Positions 290-47,873 of a DNA stretch of 64,000 bases are shown here, one piece after another; positions within the stretch are counted from its first letter, which is position 1; every line of letters starts with the position of its first letter. The stretch is from positions 3,348,001 to 3,412,000 of the forward strand of contig CM074766.1 in NCBI GenBank assembly GCA_037355855.1. Direction: 5' to 3'. The stretch comes from Pseudo-nitzschia pungens (Eukaryota > Bacillariophyta > Bacillariophyceae > Bacillariales > Bacillariaceae). A program made the position numbers and the translations under genes. The notes under the pieces were generated by a model, which did not search any database, was not told where the DNA came from, and was given only the letters and a program-made list of their open reading frames with translations.

Positions 290-3200
290 ATGCCGGGGCA
301 GGAGAAGCACAGGTGGAGAGCAAATCAACAGCAGGAAACCTCCAGTGGAGTGCAGGAGCACCAACTGAAACGCCGCGCTGGAATGGAGAAGCACCGGTTG
401 AGTACAAAGGCCGGGGCAGGAGAAGCACCGATTGAGGGCAAACAACAGCTGAAAAGCAAGCAATTGGGTGCTGGACCAACAGCAGACACGCCTCTTGGAT
501 GTGCAAGTGCAAGGTGATGACAAAGGCCGAAGCAGGGGAAGCACCGGTTGATGACAAAGGCCGGGGCAGGAGAAGCACCGGTTAATGACAAAGGCCGGGG
601 CAGGAGAAGCACCAGTTGAGAGCAATGCAACAACTGAAAAGCAAGCAGTTGGGTGTTGGACCAACAGCAGACACGCCTCTTGGATGTGCAAGTGCCAGGT
701 GATGACAAAGGCCGGGGCAGGAGAAGCACCGGTTGAAGGCAAAGGCCGGGGCAGAAGAAGCACCGGTTGATGACAAAGGCCGGGGCAGAAGAAGCACCGG
801 TTGAAGACACAGGCCGGGGCAGGAGAAGCACCGGTTGATGACAAAGGCCGGGGCAGGAGAAGCACCAGTTGAGAGCAAAGCAACAACTGAAAAGCAAGCA
901 GTTGGGTGTTGGACCAACAGCAGACACGCCTCTTGGATGTGCAAGTGCCAGGTGATGACAAAGGCCGGGGCAGGAGAAGCACCGGTTGAAGGCAAAGGCC
1001 GGGGCAGGAGAAGCACCAGTTGATGACAAAGGCCGGGGCAGGAGAAGCACCGGTTGATGACAAAGGCCGGGGCAGGAGAAGCACCGGGTGAGGGCAAACA
1101 ACAGCTGAAAAGCAAGCAATTGGGTGCTGGACCAACAGCAGACACGCCTCTTGGATGTGCAAGTGCCAGGTGATGACAAAGGCCGGGGCAGGAGAAGCAC
1201 CGGTTGAAGGCAAAAGCCGGGGCAGAAGAAGCACCGGTTGAAGACAAAGGCCGGGGCAGGAGAAGCACCGGGTGAGGGCAAAGACCGGGATAGGAGAAGC
1301 ACCAGTTGAGAGCAAAGCAACAACTGAAAAGCAAGCAGTTGGGTGTTGGACCAACAGCAGACACGCCTCTTGGATGTGCAAGTGCCAGGTGATGACAAAG
1401 GCCGGGGCAGGAGAAGCACCGGTTGAAGAAAAAGGCCGGGGCAGGAGAAGCACCAGTTGATGACAAAGGCCGGGGCAGGAGAAGCACCGGTTGATGACAA
1501 AGGCCGGGGCAGGAGAAGCACCGGGTGAGGGCAAACAACAGCTGAAAAGCAAGCAATTGGGTGCTGGACCAACAGCAGACACGCCTCTTGGATGTGCAAG
1601 TGCCAGGTGATGACAAAGGCCGGGGCAGGAGAAGCACCGGTTGAAGGCAAAAGCCGGGGCAGAAGAAGCACCGGTTGAAGACAAAGGCCGGGGCAGGAGA
1701 AGCACCGGGTGAGGGCAAAGACCGGGATAGGAGAAGCACCAGTTGAGAGCAAAGCAACAACTGAAAAGCAAGCAGTTGGGTGTTGGACCAACAGCAGACA
1801 CGCCTCTTGGATGTGCAAGTGCCAGGTGATGACAAAGGCCGGGGCAGGAGAAGCACCGGTTGAAGAAAAAGGCTGGGGCAGAAGAAGCACCGGTTGATGA
1901 CAAAGGCCGGGGCAGAAGAAGCACCGGTTGAAGACAAAGGCCGGGGCAGGAGAGGCACCGGTTGATGACAAAGGCCGGGGCAGGAGAAGCACCAGTTGAG
2001 AGCAATGCAACAACTGAAAAGCAAGCCGTTGGGTGTTGGACCAACAGCAGACACGCCTCTTGGATGTGCAAGTGCCAGGTGATGACAAAGGCCGAAGCAG
2101 GGGAAGCACCGGTTGATGACAAAGGCCGGGGCAGGAGAAGCACCGGTTGATGACAAAGGCCGGGGCAGGAGAAGCACCAGTTGAGAGCAAAGCAACAACT
2201 GAAAAGCAATCAGTTGGGTGTTGGACCAACAGCAGACACGCCGCTTGGATGTGCAAGTGCCAGGTGATGACAAAGGCCGAAGCAGGGGAAGCACCGGTTG
2301 ATGACAAAGGCTGAGGCAGGAGAAGCACCAGTTGAGAGCAAAGCAAAAACTGAAAAGCAAGCAGTTGGGTGTTGGACCAACAGCAGACATGCCTCTTGGA
2401 TGTGCAAGTGCCAGGTGATGACAAAGGCCGGGGCAGGAGAAGCACCGGTTGAAGGCAAAAGCCGGGGCAGAAGAAGCACCGGTTGAAGACAAAGGCCGGG
2501 GCAGGAGAAGCACCGGGTGAGGGCAAAGACCGGGATAGGAGAAGCACCAGTTGAGAGCAAAGCAACAACTGAAAAGCAAGCAGTTGGGTGTTGGACCAAC
2601 AGCAGACACGCCTCTTGGATGTGCAAGTGCCAGGTGATGACAAAGGCCGGGGCAGGAGAAGCACCGGTTGAAGACAAAGGCTGGGGCAGAAGAAGCACCG
2701 GTTGATGACAAAGGCCGGGGCAGAAGAAGCACCGGTTGAAGACAAAGGCCGGGGCAGGAGAGGCACCGGTTGATGACAAAGGCCGGGGCAGGAGAAGCAC
2801 CAGTTGAGAGCAAAGCAACAACTGAAAAGCAAGCAGTTGGGTGTTGGACCAACAGCAGACACGCCTCTTGGATGTGCATGTGCCAGGTGATGACAAAGGC
2901 CGAAGCAGGGGAAGCACCGGTTGATGACAAAGGCCGGGGCAGGAGAAGCACCGGTTGATGACAAAGGCCGGGGCAGGAGAAGCACCAGTTGAGAGCAAAG
3001 CAACAACTGAAAAGCAATCAGTTGGGTGTTGGACCAACAGCAGACACGCCTCTTGGATGTGCAAGTGCCAGGTGATGACAAAGGCCGAAGCAGGGGAAGC
3101 ACCGGTTGATGACAAAGGCCGGGGCAGGAGAAGCACCGGTTGATGACAAAGGCCGGGGCAGGAGAAGCACCACCAGTTGAGAGCAAAGCAAAAACTGAAA

Positions 3201-3960
3201 AGCAAGCAGTTGGGTGTTGGACCAACAGCAGACACGCCTCTTGGATGTGCAAGTGCCAGGTGATGACAAAGGCCGAAGCAGGGGAAGCACCGGTTGATGA
3301 CAAAGGCCGGGGCAGAAGAAGCACCGGTTGAAGACAAAGGCCGGGGCAGGAGAGGCACCGGTTGATGACAAAGGCCGGGGCAGGAGAAGCACCAGTTGAG
3401 AGCAATGCAACAACTGAAAAGCAAGCAGTTGGGTGTTGGACCAACAGCAGACACGCCTCTTGGATGTGCAAGTGCCAGGTGATGACAAAGGCCGAAGCAG
3501 GGGAAGCACCGGTTGAAGACAAAGGCCGGGGCAGGAGAAGCACCGGGTGAGGGCAAAGGCCGGGATAGGAGAAGCACCAGTTGAGAGCAAAGCAACAACT
3601 GAAAAGCAAGCAGTTGAGTGTTGGACCAACAGCAGACACGCCTCTTGGATATGCAAGTGCCAGGTAATGAAAAAAGGCCGGGGCAGGAGAAGCACCGGTT
3701 GAGGGCAAAGGCCGGGGCAGGAGAAGCACCAATGGAGGGCAAGTCAACAGGTGAATAGCAACCTGTTGGGTGCTGGAGCAACAACAGACACTGCACTGGG
3801 ATGTAAAAGTGCCAGGTGATGACAAAGGCCGGGGCAGGAGGGGCACCGGTTGAGGGCAAAGCAACAAACTGAAAAACAGTTGGGAGACAAAAGCCGGGGA
3901 GTATAAACACCAGTGTAGTGCAGAGGCCACAATAGAAACGCCGCTTGGGTGAAGAAATGC
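290..3960. repeat. 34-bp minisatellite with higher-order blocks
   Basis: The core unit, about GACAAAGGCCGGGGCAGGAG followed by AAGCACCGGTTGAT, is 34 bp long and repeats throughout, with variants such as CCGAAGCAGG. Single-copy-like blocks of about 110 bp containing CTTGGATGTGCAAGTGCC interrupt it roughly every 150-255 bp, about 16 times. Some blocks recur at exactly 437 bp (835, 1272, 1709), giving a higher-order repeat. Because 34 is not a multiple of 3, every third unit returns to the same frame. The minus strand has almost no stops in any frame, which produces very long artificial open frames. I do not call a protein here. Confidence 0.95.
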
Positions 3961-27975: not shown

Positions 27976-28774
27976 ATGACTTCCCCTGCATACATATTTC
28001 TAAAAGCAAAACAAAAATAAAAAAGCTAAAACATTAATATTGCTCTTTTTTCTGCAAGTTGATGAAAGAACAAAGCTGCATATTTGGGCTTTGCACTCAG
28101 TGTATGTTTTTTCTCCACTTGAACTTAGCGGGGCTACACAATATGAGTATCAAGGTACAGGGGTTGGCTGGATTGCAGGTAGAAGGGTAAAATTGGTTAA
28201 TACAAACGAACTCTGTGCTTCATTCAATGAATAGGTTGGGGAAGCTGTAGTGAGCCCCCTTTTACTCTTCATCGAATGGTAATGTTCCAAAATTTACAAC
28301 TCTCGGAGACCCACACCCTCAGCTACTATGACACATTTTCTTTCGCTGTCTAGTTCACAAGGGGAAGAAGTTCAATCACCTTATTCTTCAAAGTAAGTTC
28401 ATAGGAGTTTACTTCCGATTCAATTTGTAGGAGGGAGCCATCTAGGGATGGTGTAGATACGTGTTAGCTGTCACCCTTTGTATCTTGGCATCGTTTCTTG
28501 GGCTGAGATTTTTTTGAAAAAGATTGAAAGTACGAGTAGGTTTACGAACTCCTCGTAAGTAAGGTTACCGTACGGTAAAAACCTTACCGGTTATACCGAA
28601 TTGTGGTCGTCAATTCAAGTCGGGTCTCATTTTTCATGGGATTCGAATATTCTCTAGATGTATTACAAGTAAGGTTTACCGTAAATTACCTTAAGGTTTA
28701 CAGTATTATTTTGACCGCACGATTACCAGTGCTTGTAACCTTACTCGCAACTTCGAAGTAGGAGTTCCTGCACT
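27976..28774. other. Intergenic left of element B
   Basis: No gene is seen. An AATAAA-like signal follows the PPR stop. Dense copies of the recurring intergenic word occur here: GTAAGTAAGGTTACCGTACG near 28553, ACAAGTAAGGTTTACCGTAA near 28666 and GTAACCTTACTCGC near 28735. Confidence 0.6.
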
Positions 28775-28903
28775 GGGCCCTCCGGAACTGAAAAAAAAAT
28801 CGCGCGTACCGCACTTTGTGTCGAGTCCCGTTAAAAAATATCAATTTTTACAACCGTGCCGTTCCCTAATGTAAAAGGGGGAAAATAATTTTTTAAGGGG
28901 TAA

Positions 28904-29168
28904 AAAACGTGGGTTTTTTTTCACTATCAATAACCCACGGGTTGCAACGTGGGTTTTTTTTCACCGTGAAAAACCCACTTGAACCCACGTGACTCCACGA
29001 ACCCACGAATGGAATAATTGTGGGTTCATATGAACCCACGTTAACCCACGTTAACCCACAAAAATAACCCACGATAACCCACGATAACCCACGAAAACCC
29101 ACGAAAACCCACGAAATAACCCATGATAACCCACGACTTTTTTCCGTGAACCCACGAACCCACGATTG
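28904..29168. repeat. Left subterminal AACCCACG array
   Basis: About 18 copies of AACCCAC or its complement GTGGGTT, mostly 8-10 bp apart in the same orientation (AACCCACGATAACCCACGAT). The outer part also has GTGGGTTTTTTTTCAC twice. Regular spacing near one helical turn suggests a multi-site binding platform. It also lies where the promoter of the 29546 gene should be. Confidence 0.95.
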
Positions 29169-29215
29169 TGGGTCAACTTTCGGTGAATGTTACACCGACA
29201 AGACGTGAGCGCTCA

Positions 29216-29535
29216 TTAGCTCAACTTTCCGTGAAGCTAGTGAGCGCTCAGCTCATTTCCGTGAACGCTCTATATCGACATCAACTTTCCGTGAAGCTAG
29301 TGAGCGCTCAGCTCATTTCCGTGAACGCTCTATATCGACATCAACTTTCCGTGAAGCTAGTGAGCGCTCAGCTCATTTCCGTGAACGCTCTATATCGACA
29401 TCAACTTTCCGTGAAGCTAGTGAGTGCTCAGCTCATTTCCGTGAACGCTCTATATCGACATCAACTTTCCGTGAAGCTAGTGAGCGCTCAGCTCATTTCC
29501 GTGAACGCTCTATACATCGACATCAACTTTCCGTG
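29216..29535 (+). repeat. Five 60-bp tandem repeats
   Basis: The 60-bp unit includes CAACTTTCCGTGAAGCTAGT, GAGCGCTCAGCTC and TTCCGTGAACGCTC. Five copies are nearly identical (one G-to-A change in the fourth; two extra bases in the last). Each has the palindrome GAGCGCTC and two TTCCGTGAA words. It ends about 10 bp before the ATG of the next gene, so it is likely leader or promoter. The frame is open only because 60 is divisible by 3. Confidence 0.95.
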
Positions 29536-29545
29536 AACCGTGAAA

Positions 29546-30337
29546 ATGCCGACAACACAGAAATTAAGAGCAGGATCGGGAGCTCAAGCAACAATTCTTA
29601 CGAAATACATCAAACCTCCTCAATTACTTCCGAATCCACAGCATCGGAGCAACATAGTGCTCCTAGGCCGCAAAGGAAATGAGTATGAGTTTTGTTATCT
29701 TCATGACAACGAATCAGGAAACGAAGATTTTGTTTCCATGACTGGACCTTGCCGTTTTGTGAAGGTTGTCAAAGAAGGAGATCCGATGCTTTTTTTTAGT
29801 AAGGTCTACCAAGAGCCTAGTATTCCATGGGCAAATTCGAAAGCAAAGAAACTATTGTACAAAGATATAATGAACGGAGTAGTTCCTCTTGAACCCAAAG
29901 ACCATAACCGGAGGATTACAATGCCGCTAAAAGAAATATATTTGATGCATCCAGAATATGCGGAATATCACTTCAGTAAGTTCTCAAGTAGATTGAGTAG
30001 CCTTCGCAAAACAATCAAATCAAGCAATCAAAGAGCAGAGACCGACCAAAAAGCTTTTGAATTGTTTATTGCAAACAACCCCATTTCATATTACAGTCAC
30101 AAAGGCTATATTCAATGGCAGGGGTCGGAACAGCAGAAATTGTTGTTGAAAGACATTGAAGATGGAATTGTGGAGGAATTCGGAAGTCGAAAGAAAGATC
30201 TATGGGAATCAAGAGACGAATATTTAGCTTTCCCCCTGCATGTATTCCGTGACAAGGTTAAACAAGAGATTCGTACATCGAAATACTTCTACACATTAAA
30301 AACAAGGGGCAAGCAGGCAACTTACAAATATGCATAA
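29546..30337 (+). CDS. Element B gene 1: protein with a duplicated ~60-aa module, 263 aa
   Basis: I take the ATG at 29546. After about 90 residues come two similar modules. The first has PWANSKAKKLLYKDIMNG.V...YLMHPEYAEYHFSKFSSRL. The second has IQWQGSEQQKLLLKDIEDG.V...YLAFPLHVFRDKVKQEI. The pattern W..S.A..LL.KDI..G, then Y...P...F, looks like a small helical DNA- or protein-binding domain. I do not recognise a named family. Harbinger transposons often carry a second, DNA-binding protein gene, and this one is a candidate (inference). It is convergent with gene 2, with 74 bp between the stops. Confidence 0.75.
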   Translation: MPTTQKLRAGSGAQATILTKYIKPPQLLPNPQHRSNIVLLGRKGNEYEFCYLHDNESGNEDFVSMTGPCRFVKVVKEGDPMLFFSKVYQEPSIPWANSKAKKLLYKDIMNGVVPLEPKDHNRRITMPLKEIYLMHPEYAEYHFSKFSSRLSSLRKTIKSSNQRAETDQKAFELFIANNPISYYSHKGYIQWQGSEQQKLLLKDIEDGIVEEFGSRKKDLWESRDEYLAFPLHVFRDKVKQEIRTSKYFYTLKTRGKQATYKYA

Positions 30338-30411
30338 ATTAAATAGTGCACTACAAAATATAACTACAGCGACACAAAATTCCTACCGTACACCGAATTG
30401 GTTGTTTCGAA

Positions 30412-31819
30412 TCACAATTCTTCTTCGATTCGTTTTCTCTTCATTTGTTTGTTTGTACCTTGGGATTTAAATGATTTTTCCCCATACACAAATTTGAAAA
30501 AACGTTCTACTTTGTCTGTGAATGCCCAATTATTACCAGATGAGGTTTCCGATCGCTTCATATCTTTTCCAATCTTCTGCAACATTGAACCGAAAGTCTT
30601 TTTGTCGAAGTCTTCAGGGATAAGAAAAAATAGCTCAGGTTGATGCTCTCCACTAGTGTTTTGTCGGAAAAAGTGCTTCATATCTTTGGATGCCTTTCCC
30701 TTGATTTGACTTGGTTGCGCAATCATTTCATCAAATACAACCATCATTGTTTGAAGTTTGGGCTTTCCATTGCGCTTTTCTGCTTCCCATGTCGTGCTAT
30801 ACTGGAATTGTTTGATCATCTCTGAACACACGGTAAATTTTCTGGACGACGCATCATCTTTCACTTGTGCACAGGAAGATGGCCTTGAAAAAGTAGACCT
30901 CCTATATCCTTTTTTTTTCTTTGTTGAAAGTTGTTTCCTCTGTTTGCTGGTAGGATGAGGAAGTGAATAATGATCAAAAAGCATTTCTTCGAATGTCTTC
31001 CTCTTGCGATTTGGGAACTCAGAATACAAGCTCTTCACTGTGGTAGCCAAATCAGCGTAACTCAATGATAGAATAACTTGAAGTTTCTCCTCAACAGTTT
31101 TCCCTTTCAAATCCATACCATCGATCTCCTCATCCGCAGTATCAAGGTTATCGCTGCCTGTATCGTCACCGTGACCATCGCTTTTTCCCTCTGTATCCGA
31201 ATGTTCACCGTCATTGCTTTCGCTGCGATGAGTATCATCGATCTCCTCATCCGCAGTATCAAGGTTATCGCTGCCTGTATCGTCACCGTGACCATCGCTT
31301 TTTCCCTCTGTATCCGAATGTTCACCGTCATTGCTTTTGCTGCGATGAGTTTCAGCACTGTTGCCGTTGCCGTTGCTCTCATCGAACTCAGGTTTGTCGC
31401 TGCGATTAGGAGTTTCACCATTGTCAATCTCAGAAGTTTCACCATACCCAAATTCGTCTTCGTCAGCATTGTTGCCGTTGCCGTTGCTCTCATCGAACTC
31501 AGGATCCAACCCAGGAGTTTCACATTCACCATTGACAATCTTGAACTCAGGAGTTCCGCCCCTGTCATTGTCAACATGTTCTGCTTCTGGAAAACGCTTT
31601 TGTTTCTTCTTTGGGGGCTCACAACTTTCCTTGTTCCTTCGTGCAGCCTTGATTGCTTCCACTTGCGCTAATACAGCCAAACAAAAGAATGTCAGAAGCC
31701 TTGTCTCCATCGTAGTAGTACTGGACTTCACAGCAGGTCGACTCACCATCCAAGCATTTGCCTTCTATCGAAACAGGCCAAGCCAAGTTGAGATATTGCT
31801 CCCAAATGCAGAATTTCAT
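30412..31819 (-). CDS. Element B gene 2: acidic nuclear-type protein, 442 aa (2 exons)
   Basis: Exon 1 is 31819-31747 and exon 2 is 31667-30412; the 79-nt intron has a GTGAGT donor and a polypyrimidine tract before TTAG, and it rejoins the frame. Residues 35-45 hold a likely nuclear localisation signal (PPKKKQKR). Residues 55-205 are Asp/Glu/Gly/Ser-rich, with a perfect-looking duplication of about 36 residues (THRSESNDGEHSDTEGKSDG) and a second Pro-Glu-Phe-Asp-Glu-Ser repeat. From 205 on the protein is basic and helical, ending in KRKRIEEEL. There are no known domains. An unspliced start at METRLLTFFCLAVL would mimic a signal peptide, but the splice signals argue against it. Confidence 0.7.
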
Positions 31820-32813
31820 CCTGGATAATTAGTTTATGACCTACCAAAGCAGCAGCTTCTGCTGCAGCAGCAGCAGCATATTCACATCATGGCTCAGTTT
31901 TTGTCACGATTTTCATGGTATATGTTTCGGATTTCGTGAAGGTTTTGATGAAAACACAAAAAATGTTGGCGTGGGAATGGAACATAATGATCGTGAAGGT
32001 TTTGATGAAAACACAAAAAATGTTGGCGTGGGAATGGAACATAATTAATAGACCGTTGGATCGCCTGGAGCGGAAGAAAATTTGCGCTGATTCGTTCTAC
32101 ACAGTGGTAGTGGTAAGGTTACCTAGGTAGTACTTTATGTTTCCCGCCAACAAAGACCAAGAAAAGCCAACACGAGGAATAAGCCAAAGTGCGAGGCAGT
32201 AAAAAAAAACAACATAGGCCCGTGTGCCCTTGGGAGGAATGAAAATTGATAGGTTGAACCGCGCACATACTCCGGACGTTGGATCGCTGGCTAACGCTGA
32301 GGCGCTTCAGAACTACCACCACCCACATATGAACCCACGTTAACCCACAAAAATAACCCACGATAACCCACAATAACCCACGATAACCACGATAACCCAC
32401 GAAAAAAGTGCTCCTTCTTTAAGCGTGAGGGTGCATCTATCTTGCTTCTTTGCACGTGAAGGATCCACAAACCCACGACTCTACTGATTCCGCAAGTAAA
32501 ATGAATCGTAAACTTGCTTCTTTCAAAGAAGCAAGGTTCACGGAGAAGGGTGCATCTTGCTTCTTTGCGCGTGAAGGATCCACAAACCCACGAACCCGCC
32601 ACTTGGTCGTGTACTGATTCCGCAATCGTAAACTGTCTTGCTTCTTTCAAAAGAAGCAAGGTTCACGGAGAATGGCTGAACATTGATTGTCATTGGTTTT
32701 CTGCAAAATGAACGGGCACCGAATCGGTGCCCGTCAAATTTTGTCGCAATTGGCAGGGTTTGGACGCTCGAGAGTGAACTTCTCAAATTTTAGATCGTCG
32801 CATTTCTCTCACA
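31820..32813. promoter_or_regulatory. Central divergent promoter of element B
   Basis: It separates gene 2 (leftward) from gene 3 (rightward), so both must be transcribed from here. It contains a 54-bp direct repeat twice (31936-32044), a block of about six AACCCAC units (32326-32404) like the terminal arrays, and two copies of a segment of about 130 bp containing GCGTGAAGGATCCACAAACCCACG and AAGAAGCAAGGTTCACGGAG (32445-32560 and 32560-32675). A palindrome lies at 32712-32734. No coding frame is supported. Confidence 0.6.
32712..32734. promoter_or_regulatory. Perfect 11-bp-arm palindrome
   Basis: ACGGGCACCGA, one central A, then TCGGTGCCCGT. It stands 80 bp before the ATG of gene 3. A symmetric GC-rich site in this place fits an operator-like binding site or a short hairpin in the leader; no known factor is matched. 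Confidence 0.85.
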
Positions 32814-35800
32814 ATGGTTGTTTCCATAGCAGTGAAAAAGCAATTAGCAGAAAAAATTGAAAGTGCTGGAGGACTAGGCAAGTTTTTCAACGCTAATCGA
32901 GCCGATCAAACACTTTCAAAGTTTCTTGACCAGGATATACGTTCTTACGGAAAGAGAGGTACAGCAAAACGCAAAACAATTCGTGATTTGTTGAAAAACT
33001 GGAGAAGCTATCCAGAAAAGAAATACGAACAGCTTCTCAAAACTTTGAATGTTCTTCCGCATTCAGCACGATATCGAACGGCTGAGGAGGACGAGGAGGA
33101 CGACTACGAAGAAGAAGAAGAAGAGGAAACAGAGGTGAGATTGTTTTTCCGTGAACTTGATTTTATTTTCTGTGAATGTTATCTCACTTCTTTCTAGCTG
33201 CCATTTCAATCCCCCCGACGAGTATTGTTCCAATCACCATTTGAGACTCGTTCTAAATCTGAAGCACGTCCAACGCCAAAGTCAAGTGAAGAAATGGGTC
33301 CTACGGTTTTTCCAACGATTCCAATGAACATTGTGCGCAAGATCAATATTGACTTGCAGAATCCACACAAGAATGGCCCGTGGATGTTTGTTGTTGCCAA
33401 TAACTGCTATGTCCCAGAAAGCGGTGCTAAGATGGATAAGATTGTCATGTCTACACCCCTCACTGATGGACTTGATATGGCACAGGGTCGATACATCGTG
33501 AAAGTCAGCGTAGATGGGAAGATCATTTATGCGCGAACACCCTTTCATCCCAACTTCTTGATGACCGGTGGTGATAAGAACTTCGTAGGGTGTGATACAC
33601 AGACAATTGATGCACACAAGGCTTTTGCTTTGAAACTCACTCGGGATGAAGTCACAAGAGATGATCGTACGGAGTGGATCGAGTATCATCTACCACACGG
33701 CTACCATGTGACCACCCAGTACTTCAACAATGTCAATGGAGGCAATGTTGGTGTTCCCGACTGTGGGGCAGATGGACTATGGTCAACTCATCTCAGATGT
33801 GAAATGTATAGTGGTTGGATGGTACCTCCAAATCCGCGTTCATCTGATGCTTCTCTGCGTGAAGGTTATCCACATACGAAAGCTGTACTTTATGTCCAGT
33901 TGGCCATCACCAATACAATTGAACTTGTTGAGAGGACCTCAGTCGACCGAGTACAGTCAGCATTTGCAGATGCTTTTCGTCTGGGTGAGTGGTAGTAAAT
34001 TCAATGCATAATGGGTAGTAACACAATGATACGAAACTAAACATTTTTTTTCTAGGTTCTCCATCACCTCCTCCTGACGGCCCAGATAATGTATCTAGTT
34101 CGCAAACAACTAAAACAGAAACAGGAGGAGTCAGTTCGCAAACAACTAAAACAGAAACAGGAGGAGGAGTCAGCTTTCAAACTCCAACAACGGAATCCAA
34201 AGGTGGACAGTCTGTGGCAAGCTCATTTGCTGCAAGCTCATCCAGACAGTCATCGCAACCATCTTTCGCTTCCGGACAGTCATCGCAACCATCTTTCGCT
34301 TCCGGACAGTCATCGCAACCATCTTTCGCTTCGGGACAGTCATCGCAACCATCTTTCGCTTCCGGACAGTCATCGCAACCATCTTTCGCTTCCGGACAGT
34401 CATCGCAACCATCTTTTGCTTCCAGACAGTCATCGCAACCATCTTTTGCTTCCAGACAGTCTGCTGCAAGTTCATCGCAACCTTCGAGACAGTCATCGCA
34501 ACCATCTTTTGCTTCCAGACAGTCTGCTGCAAGTTCATCGCAACCTTCGAGACAGTCATCGCAACCAACTTTTGCTTCGAGACAGTCTGCTGCAAGTTCA
34601 TCGCAATCATCTTCTGCTTCGACTGCTGCAAGGTCATCTTTTGCTTCGAGACAGTCTGCTGTAAGTTCATCTTTTGCTTCGACTGCCGCAAGGTCATTTG
34701 CTTCGAGGTCATCTTTTGCTTCGACTGCCGCAAGTTTTGCTTCGAGACAGTCTGCTGCAAGCTCGCAACCATCTTTTGCTTCGAGACTGTCTGCTTTTGC
34801 TTCGAGACAGTCTGCTGCAAGTTCATCGCAACCATCTTTTGCTTCGGGACAGTCATCTTTTGCTTTGTCTGCGTCGTCACTACCTTTGTCTGCAAGCTTA
34901 TCACAACCATCACAGCCATCTTTTGGAACGTCTGGTGGGCACGGTCAGCTTGCCAGAAACTCTCCCGATGAGCAACAACGTCCTGCAGCCGGTGAGCAAG
35001 GAGACGGTCAGGAGTCTATAGATTTTCCATCTCCGGCAGCTCCATCTCCGCCAGCTCCATCTCCGCCAGCTCCATCTCCATCTCCATTTGCAAAATATAG
35101 TCAAGAAATTGATGAGATGCTTGAGGACATTGAACTGCCAAATATTACTGTAGATTGGTTCTCACCGCCTGAAAATCCTGACCAGCACAAGCCCCCACCA
35201 CCTGGTCCTCTTGACCAGCAGCGCAAGCCCCCACCACCCGGTCCTCTTGACCAGCAGCGCAAGCGCCCACCACCCGGTCCTCTTGACCAGCAGCGCAAGC
35301 CCCCACCACCCGGTCCTCCTGACCAGCGCAAGCCCCCACCACTCGGTCCTCCTGACCAGCGCAAGCCCCCACCACTCGGTCCTCCTGACCAGCGCAAGCC
35401 CCCACCACCCGGTCCTCCTGACCAGCGCAAGCCCCCACCACCCGGTCCTCCTGACCAGCGCAAGCCCCCACCACCCGGTCCTCCTGACCAGCGCAAGCCC
35501 CCACCACCCGGTCCTCTTGACCAGCAGCGCAAGCCCCCACCACCCGGTCTTGACCAGCGGAAATCACCATCACCCGGACAGAAGCGCAACGAGGCACCAC
35601 AGTGGAGTTCTGATGATGAGGATGAGTTTCCGAAACGTCCTCCTGGTCAATTTCGTAGAAATCTGCTTCGTGAACAACTCCATGGCAAGTTTGGTACTCC
35701 TGATAATCCTGCGTTCATCAGTACATCAGTACGTGTAGGGGGCAAGAAGTTGAAGCTGAAATCTAATCGCAATCCGAACAGTGCTGTCATTGACGATCTT

Positions 35801-35830
35801 CATACTAACATTTGGTCCAATATGAAGTAA
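32814..35830 (+). CDS. Element B gene 3: large repeat-rich protein, 960 aa (3 exons)
   Basis: Exons are 32814-33134, 33198-33984 and 34056-35830; the introns of 63 and 71 nt both start GTGAG and end CTAG. Residues 1-95 are basic and helical (possible DNA binding), then an acidic run. Residues about 115-370 form a compact globular region with conserved-looking motifs (NGPWMFVVANNCYVP, DGLDMAQGRYIVKVSVDGK, HLPHGYHVTTQYFNN, CGADGLWSTHLRCEMYSGW). It is unlike any enzyme I know. Residues about 420-630 are Ser/Gln tandem repeats (QPSFASGQSS). Residues about 690-840 are Pro-rich repeats (PDQRKPPPPGP). The C-terminal ~60 residues are basic. Exon 3 alone would look like low complexity; the splices link it to the globular part. 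Confidence 0.8.
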
Positions 35831-35884
35831 ACTTTGTAAATTATACTACGAGTACCACCTTCACAAAACGTGATGGATATGCTT

Positions 35885-36832
35885 CTAAATTTCCAATGAC
35901 GCCATCAATTCTGCAACTTCATCCTCCGGTCCACCAAAGACAACATCTTCAATGAGTACGTCAAACAAAGGTTCATTTGCCTCAATTTTGTATTCGCAAA
36001 TAACAGCAACAGCTTCAAAGGCATTAGCAATTTTTCCCACACCGTGCCGAAATCTGCTGCTTAGAACTTTAAAACTCTTACACATCCCATTAAAATCTTC
36101 GTGTCCTTTGAGAGCTCGGGTTTTGAATGTCTTCACTCCGTAACTGTCATGAAGGTTTGGGTATGAAACTGTTTTGTCGTGGCCACGGTATATTCCATCT
36201 CCGATTGCCTTCTGCTTTAACATTAGTAGCCGTTCTTCCAATCCTTCTTCAACAAAGATATTCAAATCATTTCTTCCAGCTTTGAATGGACCATTCATCC
36301 ATATTACTCTTCGTGTTGCGAGAGAAATTCCTATTTCATAATTGATACCGGCTTTGTTGAATTTATGACTGAAGTATTCCGAATCTTGTGAATATATTTC
36401 ATGTCCGGGCTCTTCAATCCATACATGTGTGCCATCAACAGTCATCACCCATGTTTCACCAAAGCTCAAGTCATCAGGCCACACTATCTTTCTTGTTTTC
36501 AATGCCTGTATTTTTTCAATCATCTGCCAAATTGGGCCACGAGCGTAGCGTGAAGTCAAACCGAATAATGTTTCGAAATCGTCTTCAAGGGGATACTTTC
36601 GAAGGTATAGAACTGCACGGAGAAACCATTTAAAGTTTACTTCGAACCCTTCCTCTGCCTGCAGATCCTTGTAGATTGTGCATAGCACATCGGGTGAGGC
36701 ACCAAACTTTGAGTTGAATCTACCGCCGTTGCTCTTTTCGTTGCCCCGGTCGATTTGTTTTCTTGAGTAGTTTGCAATTAGCAGGCCTTCAATGAGCATG
36801 TCATCTTTGGTGACAACAAGATCGTTATCCAT
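35885..36832 (-). CDS. Element B gene 4: PIF/Harbinger-type DDE transposase, 315 aa
   Basis: It should cut and insert the element. Residues about 65-110 (FKWFLRAVLYLRKYPLEDDF and LFGLTSRYARGPIWQM) match the helix-turn-helix before DDE_Tnp_4 domains. Catalytic residues are Asp133 (MTVDGTHVW), Asp212 (AIGDGIYRG) and Glu245 (LKGHEDFNGMCKSF), a D-79-D-33-E spacing. The C-terminal helix HGVGKIANAFEAVAVICEY is also typical. No frameshift or stop interrupts it, so it may be active. It starts about 85 bp from the right subterminal array, which likely holds its promoter, and is convergent with gene 3 (54 bp between stops). Confidence 0.9.
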   Translation of the reverse strand: MDNDLVVTKDDMLIEGLLIANYSRKQIDRGNEKSNGGRFNSKFGASPDVLCTIYKDLQAEEGFEVNFKWFLRAVLYLRKYPLEDDFETLFGLTSRYARGPIWQMIEKIQALKTRKIVWPDDLSFGETWVMTVDGTHVWIEEPGHEIYSQDSEYFSHKFNKAGINYEIGISLATRRVIWMNGPFKAGRNDLNIFVEEGLEERLLMLKQKAIGDGIYRGHDKTVSYPNLHDSYGVKTFKTRALKGHEDFNGMCKSFKVLSSRFRHGVGKIANAFEAVAVICEYKIEANEPLFDVLIEDVVFGGPEDEVAELMASLEI

Positions 36833-36916
36833 GGTAGTTCAGTCGACGTTCACGCACAATTGGTGTTGGGTTGACGGAAAAGGTGATGGGACATTCACGG
36901 AGGTCGAAGGTGGGTT

Positions 36917-37133
36917 CTTTAATCATGGGTTCGTGGGTTCACGGAAAAAAGTCGTGGGTTATCATGGGTTATTTCGTGGGTTTTCGTGGGTTTTCGTGGG
37001 TTTTAGTGGGTTTTCGTGGGTTATTTTTGTGGGTTAACGTGGGTTAACGTGGGTTCATTCGTGGGTTCTTTTTCACCGTGAATAACCCACGAATGCAACG
37101 TGGGTTTTTTTTCACCGTGAAAAACCCACGTAT
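36917..37133. repeat. Right subterminal GTGGGTT array
   Basis: About 15 copies of GTGGGTT (complement of AACCCAC), spaced 8-10 bp (TCGTGGGTTTTCGTGGGTTT), in the inverted orientation to the left array. It includes TTCACCGTGAAAAACCCACG as on the left. It covers the interval upstream of the transposase start. Confidence 0.95.
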
Positions 37134-37258
37134 TTTAGGGGGAGGAAAAAATAAAGGGGGCGGTCACGGAGAATGAATGTAAGTTCACGCAAAACAAATC
37201 AGTCCCGAGTTGACACAAAATTGCATGCGCGCGCAAATTATTTAGTTCCGGAGGGCCC

Positions 37259-37740
37259 TGGTGGTAAAAATTACCGTACGCTCAACGTTCGAATTTGGAT
37301 GAATACGTGCGTAGTTGTAGGCAAGATCTTACTCGTAGTCAGTCGTGATTCCTTTTCACATGAAACGAACGATGAACTTTTTTGAGATGAGATGATGAAA
37401 ACTTTCTCGCTCCATACAGTAAGATTACAGCAATTCGTGGTCGTGTGAAATTAGAGGAAATTCGTACAAATCGATGCCGTGTAGAAGTAGCTCGTACTGT
37501 ACGTACAAGCAAGACTACAAGTAATTGTGCTCGTACTTGCATCTAATATTCTGGCATCATTCGGAACGCAAATTGCATCGTTGCTTTCCCAAATTGAACC
37601 ATCATTTTTTCGTGAAAGTGACACACGATTCAATACAAACGATTTTCACTAAAGAGCTCTTTCGAAGAGTTCTGCACCTGTGTCTTTTTCAGGCACCATA
37701 AAAGTGTACAAAAAGACAGCAAAGATAACGAATCATCAAT
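37259..37740. other. Intergenic right of element B
   Basis: Likely promoter and 5' UTR of the DUF6824 gene. It contains TTACCGTACG beside the transposon border and CTCGTACTGTACGTAC near 37490. No gene. Confidence 0.6.
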
Positions 37741-46294: not shown

Positions 46295-47873
46295 GGACCT
46301 TCCGGAACTGAAAATATTTCGCGCAGACTGCGCTATTTTAAGTCGACCTGGTCAATGCTCATCCCCCCTTTTGGAGCTCAATTTTAGGGGGATAAACTCG
46401 CACTTTTTTTCCGCACTTTTTTCGAGACCAAAAAGTGCAAGTTTTCACGGGACTAAAAAAAACGTTCTTTTTCAACTCGCATTAAATGCGAGTTTCGTTC
46501 AACGGACAGAAAAAGTGCGAGTTTTCTTCGCAAAAATTTTTTTTTGACGAGGGAGTCGATTTGTTAATAGAGGCAAAACGACGGAGTCGTTTTGTTAACT
46601 TATTAATAGAGGCGCAACAATGTAGTCGAGTCACGACGGAGTCGATTTGCTAATAGAGGCAAAACGACGGAGTCGAGGCGCAACGGCGGAGTCGATTTGT
46701 TAATAGAGGAGCAGCGACGAGGGAGTCGATTTGCTAAGAGAGGTTCTTAATTAAAATTATGCTTGCTGTCCCCCCCCCCCCCTGTATTATCGACGCGTTG
46801 CTGCTTGCTGCCCCCCCCCCCTGTATTATCGACGCGTTGCTGCTTGCTGTCCCCCCCCCCTGTATTATCGACGCGTTGCTGCTTGCTGTCCCCCCCCCCG
46901 TGTATTATCGACGCGTTGCTGCTGCTTGCTGCTTGCTGCTTGCTGTCCCCCCCCGTGTATTATCGACGCGTTGCTGCTGCTTGCTGCTTGCTGCTTGCTG
47001 TCCCCCCCCGTGTATTATCGACGCGTTGCTGCTGCTTGCTGCTTGCTGCTTGCTGTCCCCCCCCGTGTATTATCGACGCGTTGCTGCTGCTTGCTGCTTG
47101 CTGTCCCCCCCCGTGTATTATCGACGCGTTGCTGCTGCTTGCTGCTTGCTGTCCCCCCCCGTGTATTATCGACGCGTTGCTGCTGCTTGCTGCTTGCTGT
47201 CCCCCCCCGTGTATTATCGACGCGTTGCTGCTGCTTGCTGCTTGCTGTCCCCCCCCGTGTATTATCGACGCGTTGCTGCTTGCTGTCCCCCGTGTATTAT
47301 CGACGCGTTGCTGCTTGCTGCTGCTTGCTGTCCCCCCCCCCGTGTATTATCGACGCCTTGCTGCTGCTTGCTGCTTGCTGTCCCCCCCCTGTGTTGTCGA
47401 CGCAACGACGGAGTCGATTTGTTAATAGAGGCGCAACGATTTGCTAAGAGAGGCGCAACGACGCGGGAGTCGATTTTCTGAGAGAGGCAAAACGACGGAG
47501 TCGAAAACGATGAGTTTTTGGTTGAAATTTTTGTTGAAAACACTCATTTTCCAAAGAAAACTCGCATTTTTTAAAGAAAACTCGCATTTTTTAATGAAAA
47601 CTCGCATTTTTTATTGAAAACTCGCATTTTTCTGCTGAAAACTCGCATCTTTCTGCTGAAAACTCGCATTTATTGCTGTATATACGTGTTTTTTTTCTAG
47701 AGCAAAAATGCGAGTTTTTTTTTACCATAAAAATCCGCACTTTTTTCGATCCCAAAAAATGCGAGTTTCTTTGGGGGAGATAATAAATTTAAGGGGATAC
47801 CCTCAAAATGACTAACTGCAATAAAAAATCGCGCGGTCTGCGCATCGAAAACTATCTTTGTTCCGGAAGGTCC
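46295..47873. mobile_element. Element C: TIR element with C-rich minisatellite, 1.6 kb
   Basis: The ends are inverted: GGACCTTCCGGAACT at 46295 and GTTCCGGAAGGTCC ending at 47873, followed inward by GCGCAGACTGCGC-like sequence on both sides. The 15-bp end is close to that of element B (GGGCCCTCCGGAACT). Subterminal zones repeat AAAACTCGCATTTTT and its complement. The middle is a C-rich minisatellite flanked by ACGGAGTCGATTTGTTAATA repeats. No protein gene. The bases just outside form TTCC-A on the left and A-GGAA on the right. Confidence 0.85.
46759..47398. repeat. C-rich minisatellite inside element C
   Basis: About 14 units of CTGTCCCCCCCCGTGTATTA TCGACGCGTTGCTGCTGCTT-type sequence (40-60 bp), each with a run of 5-11 C and a variable number of GCTTGCT. 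All plus frames are open here only because of the repeat. The G-run on the other strand could form quadruplexes. Confidence 0.95.

Follow-up and report, generated by a model that had tools for sequence, protein, structure and literature searches.

The 64-kb stretch of the Pseudo-nitzschia pungens genome analysed here (C9:3348001-3412000, the window) carries at positions 28776-37257 a single mobile DNA element of about 8.5 kb, with Harbinger-type ends and a Harbinger-type transposase. By its transposase and ends it belongs to the PHIS superfamily (PIF/Harbinger, ISL2EU, Spy, Pangu, Nuwa). Four genes, modelled from sequence alone, follow one another in the order gene 1 (plus strand), gene 2 (minus), gene 3 (plus) and the transposase gene, or gene 4 (minus), and arrays of the motif AACCCACG lie at both ends and between genes 2 and 3. 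A preliminary description of the locus had proposed one large mobile unit with four genes, a Harbinger-type transposase, inverted ends and arrays at the ends and centre; the ends, the target-site duplications (TSDs) and the PF13359 match of the transposase bear this out. Its limits, 28775-37258, rightly enclosed one element, with one TSD base too many at each end.

Ends, arrays and copies of the element

The element is bounded by perfect 14-bp terminal inverted repeats, GGCCCTCCGGAACT at 28776-28789 on the plus strand and its reverse complement AGTTCCGGAGGGCC at 37244-37257 on the minus strand, flanked by a paired CTG duplication (28773-28775 and 37258-37260). Seventeen copies of its family, here called family A (the names A to F are our own), were compared in the genome searched (66.9 Mb in 28 contigs); further partial copies also matched, and the copy counts are lower bounds. 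An exact 3-bp duplication is present in 17 of 17 copies compared, being CWG (CTG or CAG) in 16 and CCG in one. The first 14 bases are alike at both ends of all of them, apart from one left end with G for A.

Within the window, AACCCACG is confined to the element, where it is present 33 times, mainly in forward orientation near the left end and in reverse near the right, with the extra group between genes 2 and 3. The left subterminal array (28906-29167, plus strand), a series of predicted protein-binding sites, is retained in all 12 short copies. It is mirrored by the right array (36921-37130, minus strand): the two inverted arms, 29030-29167 and 36921-37058, measure 138 nt and are 97% complementary. 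The internal array lies at 32321-32402 on the plus strand. Immediately 5' of gene 1, a 60-bp tandem repeat containing TTCCGTGAA is present in 5.2 copies (29221-29537, plus strand), and its copy number varies among copies of the element.

Five of the 17 copies are long (8.2-8.5 kb, with one of 19.3 kb) and 12 are short (0.9-1.2 kb). Every short copy has both arrays in mirrored order, with 23-31 occurrences of AACCCAC where a first-order model predicts 0.2-0.7. In 11 of the 12, alignment extends over 338-365 bp at the right end and roughly 250-505 bp at the left; it is patchier in the twelfth (C11:24 kb). Among the four long copies that are contiguous, aligned bases are 99.43-99.72% identical, which points to recent movement. 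The preliminary description asked for multiple copies sharing ends and gene order, and the long copies, with their paired duplications, supply them.

Of the long copies, that of the window and that on C7 have four open genes. Genes 2 and 4 are interrupted by stops at C1:5.08 Mb, and gene 1 by a single stop at C1:4.76 Mb. The fifth long copy, of 19.3 kb, contains about 10.9 kb of other sequence inside exon 1 of gene 3, with repeats of about 18 bp on either side. This insertion (C1:4480310-4491270), with its direct repeats and its TAATAATAATA end, is perhaps a long interspersed nuclear element. Insertions and deletions that distinguish the long copies in genes 2 and 3 measure 6 to 120 bases and are multiples of 3, with a single exception, an insertion of 1 bp in gene 2 at C1:5.08 Mb. 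As many of them fall within repeats of a unit length divisible by 3, they speak only modestly for constraint on the two genes.

The C1:5.08-Mb and C1:4.76-Mb copies share flanks that are 98-99% identical over 748 bp on the left and 1067 bp on the right, which suggests one insertion duplicated later together with its surroundings, so that no more than four independent events account for the five long insertions. Candidate empty sites were found in the window. The joined flanks of these two C1 copies match one place at 31 of 31 bases; other places in the window match with 3 differences and more lie in the copies' own flanks, and this empty site is of a weak kind because the flanks are satellite. 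Those of the 19.3-kb copy differ from one sequence in the window at 2 of 31 bases. For the other two long copies, that of the window included, no empty site was present in the sequence searched.

Satellite made up of TGCTGCT and GTATTATCGACGCG units occupies window positions 46772-47403, and the two C1 long copies sit in satellite of the same kind. A long nested tandem repeat, with 34-bp units within larger units of 185-437 bp, extends over 385-3861, and a neighbouring gene encodes a DUF6824 domain, a kind abundant in diatoms. Elsewhere, a 9.7-kb interval (C7:3634096-3643798) lies between A-type ends (81% and 91%); the gene searches returned no match to gene 1, 2, 3 or the transposase in it.

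The four genes and their relatives

Gene 4 (35885-36832, minus strand) encodes a DDE transposase of 315 amino acids (aa) that matches DDE_Tnp_4 (PF13359; E 1.2e-7, 31.9 bits against a curated cut-off of 24.8); the transposases of families A, B and D all exceed this cut-off. The catalytic residues D133, D212 and E245, correctly read in the preliminary description, align with D, D and E in families B, C, E and F. Family D is represented in this alignment by two sequences, one with E and one with K: its transposases at C5:5749424-5750608 and C5:5556110-5557294 have K in place of the third catalytic residue, and the C7 copy keeps E.

The product of gene 1 (29546-30337, plus strand; 263 aa) is predicted to form a small beta-barrel and two helical segments, which have similar starts, near W95 and W191. 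No Pfam Myb/SANT model matched gene 1 or 17 relatives, and a fold search with the structure model covered little besides the N-terminal barrel. By analogy, gene 1 likely encodes the counterpart of the usual second, Myb-like Harbinger protein, a DNA-binding partner of the transposase. Of the three proteins first taken to be additions to the element, with lengths of 263, 442 and 960 aa, those of genes 2 and 3 are indeed extra, and that of gene 1 is most likely the usual second protein; the first and last lengths stand, and gene 2 has 445 aa counted from its first ATG.

Gene 2 (30412-31749, minus strand) has a low-complexity acidic N-terminal part, a conserved C-terminal domain and a basic tail. 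Gene 3 (plus strand; 960 aa) comprises three exons separated by GT..AG introns of 63 and 71 nt: exon 1 (32814-33134, 107 codons), judged by eye to resemble that of family B; exon 2 (33198-33984), the conserved core; and exon 3 (34056-35830), composed of Ser/Gln/Pro-rich 30-bp repeats, KPPPPGPPDQR 33-bp repeats and a C-terminal tail, where the insertions and deletions are again multiples of 3. Intron 2 is in phase 1 and occupies nearly the same position in families A and B (B read by eye). Searches of two protein-family libraries, Pfam and NCBIfam (the latter without gene 3 exon 3), gave no family match for genes 1, 2 or 3.

The four-gene set is no accident of one copy, since two diverged families, B and D, also carry all four genes, with transposases 72% (B) and 33% (D) identical to that of A. 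This sharing of the set within the genome goes beyond the preliminary description. Family B (C2:6581923-6591371, CTG duplication) has the order gene 1 (plus), gene 3 (minus), gene 2 (plus), transposase (minus). Family D (C5:5.74 Mb, C5:5.56 Mb and C7:1.81 Mb; the sequence examined did not span both ends) has gene 1 (plus), gene 3 (minus), gene 2 (minus), transposase (minus). Family C (C2:3880186-3889124, CTG; C2:5483081-5497861, CGG) has gene 1 (plus), a weak gene 3 in two frames (minus) and the transposase (minus), and no gene 2 was seen in it, its longer copies being examined in part. The five copies of family E have gene 1 (plus) and the transposase (minus), with gene 3 (plus) adjoining the latter, and no gene 2 in the parts examined. 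The part of family F examined contains gene 2 (plus) and the transposase (minus). Gene 1 and the transposase thus form an outer, inward-pointing pair in families A to E, and the inner genes, 2 and 3, differ in sequence and strand from family to family. One family C copy has at C2:3885599-3886807 two open reading frames (ORFs; 230 and 172 aa) in the place where other families carry gene 2 or 3; no likeness to gene 2 was seen in either.

These loci were chosen by a match to one of the genes and are not a random sample; whole-genome searches are a fairer test of gene presence, and fast-diverging genes can be missed. Among the ORFs of the loci examined, families C, D and E are detected with a gene 3 profile built from A and B (best E 8.5e-6, 1.8e-4 and 0.0019, respectively), and families A, B, D and F with a gene 2 profile; gene 1 was recovered by profile in A, B, C and E, and by genome search in D. 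Genome-wide, gene 3-type sequence occurs at 17 places (six A-type including one fragment, one B, one C that only local profile search found, four D and five E). Fifteen of them lie within 6 kb of a transposase match, and the remaining two (C1:5142647 and C7:2449144) about 13 kb or less from gene 1-type sequence. There are 67 DDE_Tnp_4 matches in the genome, most of them with no gene 2 or gene 3 match nearby, so that the four-gene set characterises some, not all, of the Harbinger-type elements in this genome.

The C-terminal domain of gene 2 is found, with a family D query, at no fewer than 77 places, 18 of them within 17 kb of a transposase match, where about 3 would be expected, and the other 59 farther away. 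These places are scattered, in groups of similar score and frame length, which suggests several dispersed families. A gene 2-like ORF of 623-626 aa recurs at C8:2.94 Mb, C5:5.02 Mb and C6:3.32 Mb (lengths from the first two); it has a weak VAL1-like zinc-finger match (E 0.0017) and is adjoined by a 304-aa ORF that has no Pfam match.

Between families A and B, nonsynonymous distance rises from 0.20 for the transposase and 0.23 for gene 1 to 0.65 for the gene 3 core and 0.88 for the gene 2 domain. The corresponding ratios of nonsynonymous to synonymous divergence (pN/pS), with synonymous sites near saturation, are 0.22, 0.23, 0.58 and 0.71. Within family A, synonymous and nonsynonymous proportions summed over pairs are 0.0073 and 0.0027 for gene 1, 0.0111 and 0.0035 for gene 3, 0.0059 and 0.0007 for the transposase, and 0 and 0.0030 for gene 2 (three pairs). 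Constraint is evident on gene 1, gene 3 and the transposase; none is visible on gene 2 in so few changes. Genes 2 and 3 appear to be fast-evolving accessories, which may help mobility or protect the element, as the preliminary description supposed.

Possible roles of the arrays and of genes 2 and 3

The observations are, in our judgement, probably best explained by a cut-and-paste PHIS element with gene 1 as the likely reader of its arrays, genes 2 and 3 as standing accessories and short copies that are moved in trans. By analogy with known elements, the gene 1 protein would bind the AACCCACG arrays at both ends and recruit the transposase; cleavage would then fall at the 14-bp inverted repeats and insertion at CWG sites. 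In the elements of this kind that have been studied, a DNA-binding partner delivers the transposase both to the element ends and to the nucleus; that of Harbinger3_DR, a Myb-like protein, recognises a 9-bp subterminal motif, and the transposase needs it for nuclear entry (PMC9710019, PMC2836001). The 12 short copies, which retain both arrays and have no room for the genes, would be mobilised in trans; such end-only copies could serve directly as substrates in a movement assay. Genes 2 and 3 would most likely build or regulate a DNA-protein complex on the arrays, or act on expression of the element.

It is possible, though in our view unlikely, that genes 2 and 3 are simply passengers on a two-gene element made of gene 1 and the transposase, with no role in movement or control. 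Canonical autonomous Harbinger elements are described with two genes (PMC4482050, PMC9710019), as are those of Ectocarpus (PMC12477816), and gene 1 and the transposase form just such an outer pair. The varying order of the inner genes among families, the wide distribution of the gene 2 domain and its A-B pN/pS of 0.71 would also suit passengers, and fungal TET/JBP genes are described as moving between transposon lineages (PMC12730594). However, both genes persist in A, B and D despite the distance between the transposases (33-72% identity to that of A), their frames are open in the window and C7 copies, and all 17 gene 3 places are in or near such elements, none being far from every element gene.

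The arrays of the related families have a bearing on a second alternative, which we regard as rather improbable: that gene 2 or gene 3 encodes an anti-silencing protein reading family-specific arrays so that its own family stays expressed, by analogy with VANC of the Arabidopsis VANDAL elements. VANC is reported to bind a 9-base motif in tandem repeats of the non-coding parts of its own element, a motif that differs between related elements, and to combine conserved domains with variable regions containing tandem peptide motifs (PMC5735166). Families B, C, D and E have different top repeated motifs (one end only examined in D and E), the low-complexity stretches of genes 2 and 3 differ by family as the arrays do, both genes join conserved domains to family-specific tandem peptides, and family A has an internal array as well. 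The top motifs of B and C, however, are subterminal at both ends and found only there, which fits transposition sites equally well. The idea that the two ends belong to separate short elements around ordinary host genes, a counter-case already raised in the preliminary description along with that of single-copy host genes, can be rejected as highly improbable: short copies with the same ends are common, but a single matching CTG pair bounds the element on its outer sides, the other four long copies likewise have paired duplications and repeat its gene order, and the genes are multi-copy.

Beyond the cut-and-paste element with standing accessories, we mention as a tentative and rather unlikely extension that genes 2 and 3 might form a control module not known outside this algal lineage, reading family-specific arrays so as to keep each family active and separate, with the gene 2 domain passed among many mobile elements. 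If true, this would be a parallel, on the Harbinger side, of anti-silencing by VANC. The group of families offers a natural series for studying how the DNA-recognition codes of transposons shift and which additional proteins these elements require, and includes a domain, that of gene 2, that recurs throughout one genome and has no name in the libraries searched.

Comparison with known systems

Three groups of the superfamily and its relatives can be set aside. The strict PIF/Harbinger group is defined by a TWA duplication (PMC4482050), and the CWG (16/17) and CCG (1/17) duplications rule it out; the Harbinger-type transposase of the original assignment stands, and the CWG duplication fits NuwaI. 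The ISL2EU group is ruled out by a 3-bp CTG, CAG or CCG duplication in place of AT and by the lack of a YqaJ exonuclease match in Pfam among the element proteins. PHISTA and HarbingerS are ruled out by the lack of a TET/JBP or SET match for genes 2 and 3 in Pfam and NCBIfam scans (the latter without gene 3 exon 3).

By its CWG duplication the element appears NuwaI-like. It shares with NuwaI a Harbinger-type DDE transposase, a 3-bp CWG duplication, inverted ends and a second protein, and differs in having four genes instead of two and a gene 1 with no match to a Myb/SANT model in Pfam. The duplication, which the account of NuwaI gives from animals only (Han et al. 2015, PMC4482050), is here probably shown in an alga. 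Three other families, Harbinger4_TP among them, have been placed near Nuwa (PMC12730594). With these already placed, a CWG duplication outside animals may not in itself be new. The suffix of Harbinger4_TP, we would guess, may stand for a diatom.

With PIF/Harbinger elements such as Harbinger3_DR and rice Ping/Pong, the element has in common a transposase and partner gene, inverted ends, a 3-bp duplication, short non-autonomous copies and a short subterminal motif. It differs in its CWG instead of TWA duplication, its four genes instead of two, its long mirrored arrays and its size of 8.5 kb, autonomous PIF/Harbinger candidates averaging about 4.1 kb. In Ectocarpus, every autonomous Harbinger element is described as having two tail-to-tail genes, an arrangement that the inward-pointing outer pair of families A to E resembles (PMC12477816). 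The usual description of Harbinger-type elements is one of two genes, whereas here four are kept across a large divergence. As the preliminary description had supposed, no element with these four genes was found in the literature (Repbase was outside the search), nor were helpers like genes 2 and 3 found there in Harbinger-type elements.

Other systems resemble the element in single respects. PHISTA, with TET/JBP, and HarbingerS, with a SET methyltransferase, are likewise Harbinger-type elements with more than the usual pair; PHISTA duplicates TA, and the domains that mark the two were not matched by genes 2 and 3 (PMC12730594). Arabidopsis VANDAL elements with VANC resemble the element in design only, through family-specific tandem motifs and a protein combining a conserved domain with tandem-peptide regions (PMC5735166), and as MuDR families they belong to a different transposon superfamily (PMC12730594).

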